NCBI GenBank assembly: GCA_029259335.1
Contig: JAPDIY010000008.1
Span: forward strand, 1 to 64,000
Direction of reading: 5' to 3'
Origin: Archaeoglobi archaeon
GTDB lineage: Archaea; Halobacteriota; Archaeoglobi; Archaeoglobales; Archaeoglobaceae
DNA: 64,000 bases
Positions 33,143 through 39,369 of the stretch are shown piece after piece; positions within the stretch are counted from its first letter, which is position 1, and every line of letters starts with the position of its first letter. The notes beneath the pieces are model-generated. The model was not told where the DNA came from, did no database searches, and worked only from the letters and a program-made list of their open reading frames with translations. The position numbers and the translations under genes are program-made.

Positions 33143-33238
33143 TAAAGTTGATGAAAATATGCTACATCCTTAGTTAATGTTAATATATGATAAAAAAATT
33201 TGGTAAAAGTTATATTAAGGATTCAGAAGACTATCTAC

Positions 33239-34126
33239 ATGCTGACAGAAATGTGGTGGTTCTGGCCTTCAGTATTGTTTGTTTTCACATTCATAATTGG
33301 AATTATTGCACCGATTTCAGGTGTTGGAGGAGGAGTTCTGTTTGTACCACTAACAACAGCTTTCTTCCCTTTCAACGTTGACTTCATAAGAGGTACAGGA
33401 CTTATAATGGCGCTGACAAGCTCTCTTTCATCAGCTCCACAGCTAACCAAAAAAGGATTGGCCAACATTAGAATTATGGCTCCGATTGTCGCGGTTTCAA
33501 GCATAACATCGATAATAGGGGGTATAGTTGGACTGTGGATAACAAACTCGTTTCCAGAGGGCAAGCACTACATCACCATAATGCTCGGCATCGTTCTTTT
33601 CATAATCTTCGCAGTAATGGCAACTTCCAAAAGAGTTGAGTTTCCTGAGGTTGAAAGACAGGACGCTCTTTCAAGAAAGCTTGGTATAATAGGGGCGTGG
33701 TACGAACCATCACTGGAGAAAGTTGTGGAGTACAGGACAAAGAATATGCCAATAGCCATTCCGGCTTTTGCAATGGTTGGGTTCATAGCTGGTATGTTCG
33801 GCTTGGGAGCGGGATGGGCAAACGTTCCCGTGCTCAATCTGATAATGGGTGCTCCGATTAAGGTGGCAACATCCACAAGCATGCTGATTATCACCGTCAA
33901 CGATGCTGCTGCTGCGTGGGTTTATCTTGCAAAGGGAGCCGTGTTGCCAGTAATTGTCATCCCATCGGTAATTGGGATAACAATAGGAGCGCGAATTGGA
34001 GCAAAACTTGCAGTTAGGGCAAAGCCAAAGTTCGTCCGATATCTGGTTATGGGAATAATGCTGATGTCGGCAATTCTCGACATTTGGAAGGGGCTGAGTG
34101 GTTTGGGTTACGTTCCGGGTTTTTGA
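33239..34126 (+). CDS. TSUP (TauE/SafE) family transporter, copy 1
   Basis: ISGVGGGVLFVPLTTAFFPFNVDFIRGTGL...GMFGLGAGWANVPVLNLIMGAPIKVATSTSMLIITVND. Confidence 0.9.
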   Translation: MLTEMWWFWPSVLFVFTFIIGIIAPISGVGGGVLFVPLTTAFFPFNVDFIRGTGLIMALTSSLSSAPQLTKKGLANIRIMAPIVAVSSITSIIGGIVGLWITNSFPEGKHYITIMLGIVLFIIFAVMATSKRVEFPEVERQDALSRKLGIIGAWYEPSLEKVVEYRTKNMPIAIPAFAMVGFIAGMFGLGAGWANVPVLNLIMGAPIKVATSTSMLIITVNDAAAAWVYLAKGAVLPVIVIPSVIGITIGARIGAKLAVRAKPKFVRYLVMGIMLMSAILDIWKGLSGLGYVPGF

Positions 34127-34130
34127 GGTG

Positions 34131-34556
34131 ATGAAAATGGCAGAAACGGATGTTGAAGTTGAACCGATGAACAAAATTTTTGCAAGAGTTATGGAGCTGA
34201 CGACAATCGTAGGGCTTGTAGTGATGATTGTTCCTGGCTTAATTTCCCTTTCCGGCGAAAACGTTTACGTTGATCCGATCCACACCGTGAACAACTGGGA
34301 CAAATCTGCAGAAGAGTTTTGGCACGATGCAAAAGGTATTAGTATTCACGGCTACGATTGGATTTTTGAGAATTTAGAGCGTTTTGACTGCATCAGTTTA
34401 TTTGGTGTTGTAATCTTAGCACTGGCACCAATGTTAAGCATTCTTGCAGCAATACCTTCTGCTCCAAAGATTTACAAAGTAATTCTTGGAATAGTAGCAG
34501 CAGAACTCGTCTTCGCCATTGTCAGACCGCTCATCATGGCGGGAGGGGGGCATTAA
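34131..34556 (+). CDS. DUF1634-like small membrane protein, copy 1
   Basis: Three predicted TM segments; immediately downstream of TSUP gene; ISLFGVVILALAPMLSILAAIPSAPKIYKVILGIVAAEL. Confidence 0.7.
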   Translation: MKMAETDVEVEPMNKIFARVMELTTIVGLVVMIVPGLISLSGENVYVDPIHTVNNWDKSAEEFWHDAKGISIHGYDWIFENLERFDCISLFGVVILALAPMLSILAAIPSAPKIYKVILGIVAAELVFAIVRPLIMAGGGH

Positions 34557-34996
34557 TGCAAACTCGCTTCCCAAGCCAGCAAAAGCATTACTGAGAGTAT
34601 GGTAATAGCCAAGATTGTATATAATCCTTTTTTATAGAATAATATTTCTCTACTTCTGAACATGGATGCGAAAAGACAGATCATTCCCGCAATCCCACCG
34701 TAAACGACTGTTGCAATTCCAAACATGGCGATCCCATCACCTGTATGCAGTATGGTCAAAAACCAGTATCCATGTAGCTCTGTATGCATATAAGTGTCCT
34801 TTTCCCATACTTTCTCTTCATTAAGCCCGCTGAGAAGATCCTTTACAGTAGACTGGTAGTCGAAAATGGAATTGCCAGAAATCCCGATTATAACTCCTGC
34901 AATGGCTACTAAAATGCCAATAATCGTGAGCCAACCACTAACTTCTCCATAAATTCTCCCTTCCAGAGGAGATTTTACCCTCATCTCATCATCCAT
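34553..34996 (-). CDS. DUF1634-like small membrane protein, copy 2
   Basis: EVSGWLTIIGILVAIAGVIIGI...GDGIAMFGIATVVYGGIAGMICLFASMFRSREILFYKKGLYTILAITILSV; overlaps the copy 1 stop. Confidence 0.7.
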   Translation of the reverse strand: MDDEMRVKSPLEGRIYGEVSGWLTIIGILVAIAGVIIGISGNSIFDYQSTVKDLLSGLNEEKVWEKDTYMHTELHGYWFLTILHTGDGIAMFGIATVVYGGIAGMICLFASMFRSREILFYKKGLYTILAITILSVMLLLAWEASLH

Positions 34997-35862
34997 AATC
35001 CCACCCAGACAAGCCTAATACCAGCGAAAAGCAAAATAAGTGTCAGAATGTACCTCACATACCTTGCTTTGGTTCTTACAGCAACTCTCGCTCCAATTCT
35101 CGCCCCAACCATAAGTCCCATTACAGCAGGAACCGCAAATATCGGAATTAGCGAACCTGAAATAAAATATGGCACGATTGCAGCGGTGTCGCCAATACTG
35201 ATTATCACAGCACTCGTTGTCGTAGCAACTTTCAGCGGTGCGAGCATTATCAAGTTAATTGTTGGTCCTATCGCCCATCCAGCCCCCAAACCGAAAGTAC
35301 CAGAAATGAAGCCCACCCCGCAGCAAATTAAAAAGGCAAGTGGAGCGTGTTTTAGTTTGTATTCCACAACCCTATCGAGAGATTTTTCATAATAGGGTAT
35401 TTCAAGGCCGAGTTTCTGAGTAATTCTATCCCCCTCGCTTTCGGGATACTCTGTTTTTTTAATAAAAATGTACAGTATACCTATGAATAAAACAATCAGA
35501 CCGAGCATCAACTTGAGGATCGCAACACCGTAACTTCCAAAATGACCTGTGAGGTAAAGTCCGAAGTAGGCACCAATCACCGCAAAAACTGTGTAGGGTG
35601 CGGCAAGAAAGAGGGCGATTCTGATATTTGCAATGCTCCGCAGGTACGTCTGGGCACCCATTCTCGTTCCCGCTACGGCAGATAGCAGACCTGTAGCACG
35701 GACTATATCGGGGTGAATTGAAGTAAATCCGAGAAGAAAAGACGTGAAGAGTACTCCACCACCTGTACCAGCAATGATAGCTACAAACCCAATAGAAAAG
35801 CAGAAGGCAAATATCTCAACAAAAAATTTTATTGTAGTTGGGATAACCACGAGCGTCTGCAC
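34981..35862 (-). CDS. TSUP (TauE/SafE) family transporter, copy 2
   Basis: IAGTGGGVLFTSFLLGFTSIHPDIVRATGL...GTFGLGAGWAIGPTINLIMLAPLKVATTTSAVIISIGD. Confidence 0.9.
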   Translation of the reverse strand: MQTLVVIPTTIKFFVEIFAFCFSIGFVAIIAGTGGGVLFTSFLLGFTSIHPDIVRATGLLSAVAGTRMGAQTYLRSIANIRIALFLAAPYTVFAVIGAYFGLYLTGHFGSYGVAILKLMLGLIVLFIGILYIFIKKTEYPESEGDRITQKLGLEIPYYEKSLDRVVEYKLKHAPLAFLICCGVGFISGTFGLGAGWAIGPTINLIMLAPLKVATTTSAVIISIGDTAAIVPYFISGSLIPIFAVPAVMGLMVGARIGARVAVRTKARYVRYILTLILLFAGIRLVWVGLWMMR

Positions 35863-35903: not shown

Positions 35904-37232
35904 TTACTGCAACCCCTCAACGTATGCCATGAATTCTTTTTCAGACATCTTCACCCATTTCGAATACCATCCACGGATTTTCTCCAGTCTTCCCACTTCA
36001 ACATTGTAGAAGTTCAGCACTCCAAGCATCTCCCCTTCTCTTATCTTCCCATCCATCACTGGCAGAAACACGACTTTCTGAATGACTCCGCCCTCCTCAA
36101 CTCTCCACGGTATACAATCGCAGAAAATGTCAACAACCGTTCCATATGCATGTCTCATGATGTGTAACGGATAAACGATCGTATTCGGCGGAACTTTCAC
36201 TTTCTTGACCTTAACAACAGCGGGCTCTCCGTATCTCAGCTCCTTGTTTTCATCCGCAACCAGCACCTCCCACTTCGCAACAGGGCTCCTTTTGTATCCG
36301 AAAGGTTCAACAGTAACTTCCTTCTTAATTATACCTTCGCCACTCCTGTAAATCATTCTGACTCTCTCTGGACTTTTCTCCTGAATGACGCTCTCAACCT
36401 CAGTGAGACCAACATAATAAACGCTGATCACTCCAATCAAATCTCCCTTCTCTATCTTACCATCCTCAACCGCAAGAAATATTGCCTGCTGTAAATTTTT
36501 CTCATCTTCAACTCTCTTCGGCCTTCCGAGTTCAACAACATCGAGGACTGTGCCATAGGCGTTTCTCATTATGCTGAGGGGAACTACAACCGTGCTGGGT
36601 GGCAGGTTGATCTCTTTTATATTTACACGAACAATGTCTCCCTTCTTAACAGTAATATCCTCGTCTGCAATCAGCATTTCCCACACTCCGATGTGACTAC
36701 GTGTGTATCCAAGAGCGTCAAGCTTGGCTCTCTTCCGATAAACATTCCCGTTATCTCTCCATGTAATATTTGCTTCCGTAACCTCCCTCTTAATCTCAAC
36801 CTTAGGAGGATTCAGACCAAAAATGCGATTCAAAATACCCGCTCTAATGTAGAAAACTTTCAGAACTCCAATCAGATCATCTTTTTTAACTTCTCCACTT
36901 TCAACAGGAATGAAAAGGACTTTATTTATGCATTTCTCATCCTCAACTCTTTCCGGAATTCCACATTCAACCACATCCTGAACAACCCCAAGAGCGTGCC
37001 TCATTATGCTCAAAGGCCCGACCATCGTATTCTCTGGAAGATATATCGGCTTAACTTTTAGTATAACCGGCTTTCCCTTTTCAACGGTAATATCCTCGTC
37101 TGCAATCAGCATTTCCCACTGCGTAACTGGGGCCATCCTGTAACCAAACGGTTTGAGTTCCAGTTCTCTGCGCTCCAGCTTCCCTCCAATCTCATCAACC
37201 CAATAGGTCATCTCCACTTTCATATCAACCAC
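35904..37232 (-). CDS. Protein made of three tandem DUF22-like repeats
   Basis: Three repeats each with MAPVTQWEMLIADED / RSHIGVWEMLIADED / RSPVAKWEVLVADEN and PLSIMRHALGVVQDVVECGIPERVEDE / PLSIMRNAYGTVLDVVELGRPKRVEDE / PLHIMRHAYGTVVDIFCDCIPWRVEEG. Confidence 0.8.
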   Translation of the reverse strand: MVDMKVEMTYWVDEIGGKLERRELELKPFGYRMAPVTQWEMLIADEDITVEKGKPVILKVKPIYLPENTMVGPLSIMRHALGVVQDVVECGIPERVEDEKCINKVLFIPVESGEVKKDDLIGVLKVFYIRAGILNRIFGLNPPKVEIKREVTEANITWRDNGNVYRKRAKLDALGYTRSHIGVWEMLIADEDITVKKGDIVRVNIKEINLPPSTVVVPLSIMRNAYGTVLDVVELGRPKRVEDEKNLQQAIFLAVEDGKIEKGDLIGVISVYYVGLTEVESVIQEKSPERVRMIYRSGEGIIKKEVTVEPFGYKRSPVAKWEVLVADENKELRYGEPAVVKVKKVKVPPNTIVYPLHIMRHAYGTVVDIFCDCIPWRVEEGGVIQKVVFLPVMDGKIREGEMLGVLNFYNVEVGRLEKIRGWYSKWVKMSEKEFMAYVEGLQ

Positions 37233-37373: not shown

Positions 37374-38492
37374 ATGAAAATCGCGCATATTTCAGACTTA
37401 CATTTCGGAGAAGAACTTGTAAGAGAGAAGGTGGAGAAAGCTGTTAGGCAGATAAACGAAGCTGAACCTGATCTTGTTGTTATTACCGGAGACCTCTCGT
37501 GCTGGGGGATACACTCCGAGATGAGGGATGCTTATGAAACACTCATTGATTTAAAACCTGAAGTTGTGGCGGTACCGGGCAATCATGACGCGAGAAACAT
37601 CGGGCATGAGTTTTTCGAACTGTATTTCGGCGATACAAAAAAACATTACAAGAATGATGTCATATCTTTAATTGCTGCAGACAGCACACAACCGGATCTG
37701 GATGACGGATATATCGGCTACGAACAGAGAGAGTGGATAAGGAACAAGACCAAGAAGAACAAGTTCAATATCCTCGCACTGCATCACCACATAGTTCCAG
37801 TACCGAAAACGGGGAGAGAAAGGAACGTTCTCATAGATGCAGGCGAAATGGTAGAACTCATAACAACATCTGGCATAACTGCTGTACTCGCAGGACACAG
37901 GCACATGCCCTATTCAATAAGATTGATGAGGACACATATAATACACGCCGGAACTCTCGGCTCGTTCAAGGTTCTTGGAATGCCAGATCAGAATTACAAT
38001 ATAATCGAGATTGAAAATGAAACTCTCATATTAAAGCTCAAGTTCGTTGATTTCGGGGAGGTTGAGGTGGGAAAATTCGCGATTAAAACAGAAACACCCG
38101 AATCTATTGATATATACCACAGAATTGCCAAGCCTAAGCGTGTTCTTTTCGTTTCAAAGGCAAACGATTGCAGAACGCAGATGGCCGAGGCCATTTTCAA
38201 CAAGATTTCCCCCAACAACATGCTCGCTCTAAGCGCGGGTTTAGAGCCAGCGGAAAGCGTTGATTTGAGGGCAATAGCAGTTATGAAAGAGCTTGACCTG
38301 AAGGTAAACGGTAAGCCGAGGAAGATAAGCAAAGAGATGTTGAGAGACTTTGATGTGATTATCGAATTTGATGAGCTTGGGCTTGGTGAGTATTGGGACG
38401 TGAGAAAGCCTACAACCATGGAGGAGTACAGAGAGGTAAGAAGAGAAATATGGGGCAGAGTTGAGGAGCTTGTAAAAAGGCTTCTCTATTGA
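37374..38492 (+). CDS. Calcineurin-like metallophosphoesterase fused to LMW protein tyrosine phosphatase-like domain
   Basis: N-term MKIAHISDLHFGEE...VVITGDLS...VPGNHDARN...LALHHHIVP...LAGHRHMPY; C-term KRVLFVSKANDCRTQMAEAIFNKISPNNMLALSAGLEPAESVDLRAIAVMKELDL...DFDVIIEFDE. Confidence 0.87.
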   Translation: MKIAHISDLHFGEELVREKVEKAVRQINEAEPDLVVITGDLSCWGIHSEMRDAYETLIDLKPEVVAVPGNHDARNIGHEFFELYFGDTKKHYKNDVISLIAADSTQPDLDDGYIGYEQREWIRNKTKKNKFNILALHHHIVPVPKTGRERNVLIDAGEMVELITTSGITAVLAGHRHMPYSIRLMRTHIIHAGTLGSFKVLGMPDQNYNIIEIENETLILKLKFVDFGEVEVGKFAIKTETPESIDIYHRIAKPKRVLFVSKANDCRTQMAEAIFNKISPNNMLALSAGLEPAESVDLRAIAVMKELDLKVNGKPRKISKEMLRDFDVIIEFDELGLGEYWDVRKPTTMEEYREVRREIWGRVEELVKRLLY

Positions 38493-38825: not shown

Positions 38826-39311
38826 CTAAATTACGAAAACAGCAGCAGCAACAGCAGTGGTGCACTTCTCAACCTTTCCTTTTGCCGTAACGCTAAGAGT
38901 TTTTGCAGTTCCGTTCCCCTGCGTTCTTACCATCTCCGCAGCGAGTTTCTCTGCATGCTTCTCTGCCCCTTCATACCACTCTCCACTGTGCTCTGCTATG
39001 TAGCCATTAATGTTTCCACTGTCCGGAATTGCTGCTCCGATGCTCGCAAAAATCTCCTTGCCCTCTTCACAGCTTGTGTACCTTGCCATAACGCAGAAAA
39101 CGATTTCACCGGGATGGAGTTTTCTCAAACCCTCTTCCTTCTCCACCACAACGCATCCAGGGGGTAATATGCTACTGACGGGAACGAGATTAAACCTCTC
39201 TATTCCTGCATTCCTCAGTGCAAGCTCGAAACTCATAAGTCTGTCCTCATGTCTGCCTATTCCTGAGACAAAGAACACTTCTTTCGGTAGAAGCACAGCT
39301 TTCCTGCCCAT
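38826..39311 (-). CDS. pdaD: Pyruvoyl-dependent arginine decarboxylase
   Basis: MGRKAVLLPKEVFFVSGIGRHEDRLMSFELALRNAGIERFNLVPVSSILPPGC (SS cleavage site), GEIVFCVMARYTS, TAVAAAVFVI. Confidence 0.92.
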   Translation of the reverse strand: MGRKAVLLPKEVFFVSGIGRHEDRLMSFELALRNAGIERFNLVPVSSILPPGCVVVEKEEGLRKLHPGEIVFCVMARYTSCEEGKEIFASIGAAIPDSGNINGYIAEHSGEWYEGAEKHAEKLAAEMVRTQGNGTAKTLSVTAKGKVEKCTTAVAAAVFVI

Positions 39312-39369
39312 GCCTGCTCTTCTGCTATCAAAATTTAACATTTGCTGTGGGAAAAACTATTTATCTCAA

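Follow-up and report, generated by a model that had tools for sequence, protein, structure and literature searches.

The 64,000-nucleotide stretch of Archaeoglobi DNA analysed here (the window), from a genome of 1.75 Mb in 101 contigs, carries on its forward strand, at 37374–38492, an ATG-to-TGA frame of 372 codons, encoding 372 amino acids. Pfam recognises a metallophosphoesterase (MPE) domain (Metallophos, PF00149; residues 1–179, E 3.7e-20, 73.6 bits against a cut-off of 21.5) followed by an LMW-PTP domain (LMWPc, PF01451; residues 257–334, E 1.4e-16, 61.4 bits against a cut-off of 23.2). A sequence-only reading of this DNA had described the frame as a full calcineurin-like phosphoesterase joined to an LMW-PTP fold, and both the frame and the two domain matches bear this out. 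An AlphaFold2 model of the fused protein, built from a 49-row alignment, has a mean pLDDT of 93.8 and a pTM of 0.77; it supersedes an earlier model from 16 sequences, in which the MPE half was poor. A scan for promoters and terminators around the gene gave nothing above shuffles. The parts of the gene are as follows.

37374–38492, + strand: fused gene, MPE plus pseudo-LMW-PTP/ArsC domain, 372 aa (frame and Pfam; the fused frame is kept in 17 of 57 Archaeoglobales genomes)
37374–37910, + strand: MPE catalytic core, residues 1–179 (PF00149; invariant residues D8 and H10, D40, N70, H71 and D72, H137, H138 and H139, H175 and H177)
37992–38081, + strand: C-terminal β-strands of the MPE half, residues 207–214, 217–224 and 228–236 (AlphaFold2 model from alignment A3)
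38082–38135, + strand: interdomain linker and helix 243–252 (the lowest-confidence stretch of the AlphaFold2 model, block pLDDT about 78–90)
38136–38489, + strand: pseudo-LMW-PTP/ArsC domain, residues 255–372 (PF01451; matches to 1Y1L and other ArsC sequences, Foldseek matches to 1jf8 and 3rh0)
38154–38177, + strand: degenerate P-loop, S261-K-A-N-D-C266-R267-T268, with TCA as the nucleophile codon (sequence and ortholog loops)
38394–38411, + strand: degenerate DP loop, W341-D-V-R-K345-P346, with Lys345 at the place of the general-acid Asp of active homologs (alignment)

The metallophosphoesterase half

The residues Asp8, His10, Asp40, Asn70, His71, Asp72, His137, His138, His139, His175 and His177 are invariant in 16 aligned fused proteins, and the same residues are likewise invariant across 13 rows that include two MPE-only proteins. 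The D-x-H, GD, GNHD, H and GHxH motifs of PF00149 are all present, and judged by sequence the MPE active site is complete. The model has the expected fold: its best PDB matches in Foldseek are GpdQ (2dxl, E 3.5e-15) and then Rv0805 (3ib7/2hy1), and the same two proteins lead when a profile of the MPE half is compared with solved structures (GpdQ 2zo9, E 5.4e-14; Rv0805, E 5e-13). GpdQ is the glycerophosphodiesterase of Enterobacter aerogenes (2dxl, 2zo9, 3d03) and Rv0805 a class III cyclic-nucleotide phosphodiesterase. Both resemble the N-terminal half in fold and metal-ligand motifs, but they share only ∼20% identity with it and neither bears an LMW-PTP domain; the likeness is one of fold and motifs.

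None of the curated equivalog cut-offs for named phosphodiesterases is reached by the MPE half. The class III cAMP phosphodiesterase CpdA (PRK11148) was not assigned, with 42.5 bits against a cut-off of 225, and the top NCBIfam name, DS9_1, pointed to an anti-phage role that was rejected at 69.6 bits against a cut-off of 420, with weak matches in PADLOC. MPE proteins are promiscuous in their substrates, and a match to the family assigns none.

The degenerate active site of the C-terminal domain

The nearest solved relatives of the C-terminal half are arsenate reductases, led by 1Y1L, an ArsC-like protein of A. fulgidus, and Foldseek likewise returns ArsC structures, among them 3rh0 and the engineered C10S mutant 1jf8. 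The domain thus has fold and sequence in common with the LMW-PTPs and with thioredoxin-type ArsC proteins such as A. fulgidus 1Y1L and S. aureus pI258 ArsC. Those proteins, however, have a nucleophilic Cys, a general-acid Asp and redox cysteines, whereas the fused domain is without all three, and in some members its loop is eroded as well.

In the window the phosphate loop reads VLFVS-KAND-CRT in place of the C(X)5R(S/T) signature. Ser261 occupies the position of the usual nucleophile and Cys266 and Arg267 are kept, just as the sequence-only reading had it. The substitution is conserved: of the 19 fused copies with a readable loop, 18 have Ser where the nucleophile would be, and the remaining copy has Ala. 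The Ser261 codon is TCN in most lineages and AGC in a Ferroglobus-type pair (G022 and G023); TCC and AGC are each one step from the Cys codon TGC, so that the Ser codons may represent either two separate losses or a retained Ser. The second Cys, Cys266, is replaced or missing in five of the 19 copies: the Ferroglobus-type pair has Ala there and a second G022 copy has Leu, and the residue is absent in G033 and L035. In these last two Arg267 is also lost or out of register, and in the Ferroglobus-type pair, with the loop SKDGDARV, both the conserved Asn and the Ser/Thr after the Arg are gone. A Ser at the nucleophile position is also seen outside the fused family, in a Clostridiales MAG, where the loop of a stand-alone LMW-PTP-like protein (L053, near 5991) reads FVS-TGNT-CRS.

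Elsewhere in the domain, no fused member has an Asp immediately before the DP-loop Pro in the alignment. Some intact-Cys stand-alone homologs, such as 1Y1L (ENP), also have Asn at this place, and loss of the Asp is therefore not decisive by itself; what decides is the combination of losses. The ArsC redox pair VCxxxxC (corresponding to C82/C89) is absent from all the fused members and present in the pst-linked stand-alone homologs. Judged by sequence, then, the C-terminal domain has lost its nucleophile, its general acid and its redox cysteines, and the earlier description of it as non-catalytic is well supported.

Distribution, selection and gene neighbourhoods

The fusion was found in 17 of the 57 Archaeoglobales genomes searched, including three single-contig genomes (G001, G019 and G022; 2,178,400, 1,901,943 and 2,196,266 bases) that, going by their size, are probably those of A. 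fulgidus, A. veneficus and Ferroglobus placidus. Among named records, Archaeoglobus sp. UBA230 has it at 90% identity. One further copy (L035) was found separately, in a MAG that bears the name Candidatus Hydrothermarchaeota. Other families of the same phylum, among them a second family within this order (G055, G056), have the MPE half by itself, as a protein of ∼220–280 residues. The viral contigs searched held no relative of the fused protein, and a viral fold library gave generic MPE matches only.

G022 and G031 each carry a second copy. That of G022, a Ferroglobus-type genome (L086:6645–7766; G022:C1:702644–703765, minus strand), is diverged, with Ser at the nucleophile position and Leu at the second Cys; its only interruption is an in-frame TGA in place of the otherwise invariant Trp44, which is probably a recent nonsense mutation. 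The second copy of G031 (L089; G031:C2:102635–103682) is broken by frameshifts, its loop still keeping VLFVSKDDACRT.

In a tree, the fused LMW-PTP-like domains fall into a single, deeply branching group (support 99/99, one change) apart from the stand-alone proteins, and they are not nested in the pst-linked clade; by pairwise score the closest stand-alone is an intact-Cys protein of G014, at 45% identity. Both halves are under purifying selection, which is weaker on the pseudo-domain: for pairs with estimable dS, dN/dS is 0.021–0.032 in the MPE half and 0.045–0.10 in the pseudo-domain, the ratio being undefined where dS is saturated.

Stand-alone relatives of both halves occur beside phosphate-transport genes. 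In the other families of the phylum, MPE genes adjoin pst genes at 11 of 18 loci, typically in the order PstS-MPE-PstC-PstA-PstB-PhoU; in one such operon (L107) five genes exceed the curated cut-offs for PstS, PstC, PstA, PstB and PhoU. Methanosarcina-like MPE loci show no pst linkage. In the Archaeoglobaceae, intact-Cys stand-alone LMW-PTP/ArsC genes lie within pst operons at 14 of 21 loci, either between PstB and PhoU or directly after PhoU. These two independent associations tie both parent folds to phosphate uptake. The A. fulgidus 'arsenate reductase' 1Y1L is itself encoded inside a pst operon, beside PstB and PhoU (L152:7105–7509; G001:C1:1215107–1215472), and equivalent genes occupy the same place in many Archaeoglobaceae that have the operon. 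A precedent for the co-location of arsenate reductase and phosphate-transport genes exists in bacterial arsenic islands, which combine ars and pst genes (PMC3834237); in the archaea, by comparison, the LMW-PTP/ArsC homolog lies inside the pst operon itself and the fused form elsewhere.

The fused gene was in a pst operon at none of the 16 fused loci examined (L080–L094, L097), a PstB-like flag at L089 being due to low-scoring generic ABC ATPases. In eight fusion carriers (G000, G003–G006, G009, G029 and G033), some of them incomplete genomes, PstB went unmatched and nothing exceeded the family cut-off for PstC. Because the pst linkage belongs to the stand-alone relatives, the phosphate link of the fusion is indirect.

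No operon partner of the fused gene was found to be conserved across genera. In A. fulgidus-type genomes a RIO kinase, a DUF460 protein, a TIM barrel and an enoyl-CoA hydratase lie upstream, and in some g7 genomes an Fe-S/CCG protein is near. DUF22 genes are near the fused gene in five genomes, in differing arrangements: in the window a 442-residue protein with three DUF22 stretches (35904–37232, minus strand; E 2e-123) is divergent from it, and DUF22 genes also occur near the fusion in G003 (two copies), G027, G028 and G030. A pyruvoyl-dependent arginine decarboxylase gene adjoins the fused gene in the window (38826–39341, minus strand) and in G001, G003 and G006. The window also encodes two related TauE/SafE-like exporters of 308 and 293 aa, with a small membrane-like protein (152 and 147 aa) following in each case; the two units, at 33200–34556 (plus strand) and 34553–35862 (minus strand), meet tail to tail in the manner of a mirrored duplication.

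The role of the fused domain

We consider the fused protein of these heat-loving archaea, with moderate confidence, to be an active dinuclear-metal phosphodiesterase or phosphoesterase of the GpdQ/Rv0805 type, acting in phosphate metabolism and bearing a catalytically dead LMW-PTP/ArsC fold at its C-terminus. The MPE half would cleave a small phosphodiester, either a glycerophosphodiester or a cyclic nucleotide, in the cytoplasm. The pseudo-domain would perform no chemistry and might instead position, stabilise, oligomerise or regulate the enzyme; any binding of an oxyanion by it would be confined to lineages in which Arg267 is retained. The connection with phosphate metabolism comes from the gene-neighbourhood evidence, which is new here, and not from the argument of the sequence-only reading.

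Some explanations can be given little weight. A sequencing or assembly artefact, whether a wrong base or a false gene fusion, has a negligible probability, as the same fused frame and the same Ser recur in independent genomes, among them the three single-contig ones; given Ser in the orthologs and a fused frame conserved under purifying selection, both the fusion and the Cys-to-Ser change are genuine, being neither errors nor isolated mutations, outcomes that had been named as refuting the earlier account. It is also highly improbable that the domain uses another nucleophile, as had been suggested, and is a working phosphatase or arsenate reductase by way of Cys266 or Ser261. Cys266 is indeed present in the window and in most orthologs, yet it is not kept in the Ferroglobus-type proteins or in the two further lineages described above; homologs with an intact loop (VCRENTCRS) have the equivalent Cys beside the true nucleophile, and the DP-loop Asp and redox cysteines are gone.

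The pseudo-domain could instead be purely structural, mediating dimerisation or capping the active site while its loop drifts, which we rate as a real possibility if not a probable one. Erosion of the loop in several lineages while Leu258, Phe275, Asn276, Pro280, Asn282, Met283, Trp341 and Leu366 stay invariant is consistent with such a role, as is a dN/dS about twice that of the MPE half; against it, the 16-row alignment shows the loop Ser and Arg to be at least 90% conserved even so, above what pure drift would lead one to expect. The proposal that the domain is a sensor of phosphate or arsenate, in which the Ser-containing loop and its Arg bind free Pi or a phosphorylated ligand in the manner of a substrate trap and switch the MPE on or off, seems to us unlikely. 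In its favour, Archaeoglobus and most of the other lineages retain Arg267 with the greater part of the loop, engineered ArsC mutants such as 1jf8 (C10S) bear this very substitution of the nucleophile by Ser, Ser is kept though TCN and AGC codons both occur, and the stand-alone relatives are pst-associated. The two Ser codons may, however, reflect separate single-step losses, and the Ferroglobus-type pair has a degenerate loop. Moreover, with Arg267 and a normal loop missing from G033 and L035, sensing cannot be a general, conserved role of the domain; the earlier suggestion of a phosphate or nucleotide sensor regulating the phosphoesterase can hold where Arg267 is kept, but not for the family as a whole. 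Structural or oligomeric and oxyanion-sensing roles need not exclude each other. We hold as doubtful the more specific idea that a pst-associated LMW-PTP/ArsC fold, having lost catalysis, was co-opted to sense oxyanions and so regulate a metallophosphodiesterase that is itself pst-associated, to give a single-chain archaeal phosphodiesterase that responds to phosphate or arsenate.

For the preferred reading, an active phosphoesterase with a dead accessory domain, there are parallels among the pseudophosphatases. They include STYX and the tandem receptor PTPs, in which D1 is active and D2 is a pseudophosphatase (PMC10211241): an active phosphatase is accompanied in the same chain by an inactive domain of phosphatase fold that acts as a regulator or scaffold, and in receptor PTPs the pseudophosphatase domain regulates the active one. 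D1 and D2, however, share one fold, whereas the archaeal fusion joins a metallophosphoesterase to an unrelated Cys-phosphatase fold.

Our literature search, incomplete in coverage, found no paper on the combination of MPE and LMW-PTP domains in archaea. Both folds are well known; what is new is a fused pseudo-LMW-PTP kept across the family, together with the double pst link, and since all the parts are known folds this is a new arrangement and not a new kind of enzyme. The fusion contains a pseudo-LMW-PTP that occurs naturally in prokaryotes, has been retained in several genera of a single archaeal family and is joined to an unrelated phosphoesterase that looks active. How archaea sense phosphate downstream of Pst/PhoU is, so far as we are aware, poorly understood, and a family of pst-linked phosphodiesterases whose accessory domain can be tested therefore offers a concrete entry point.
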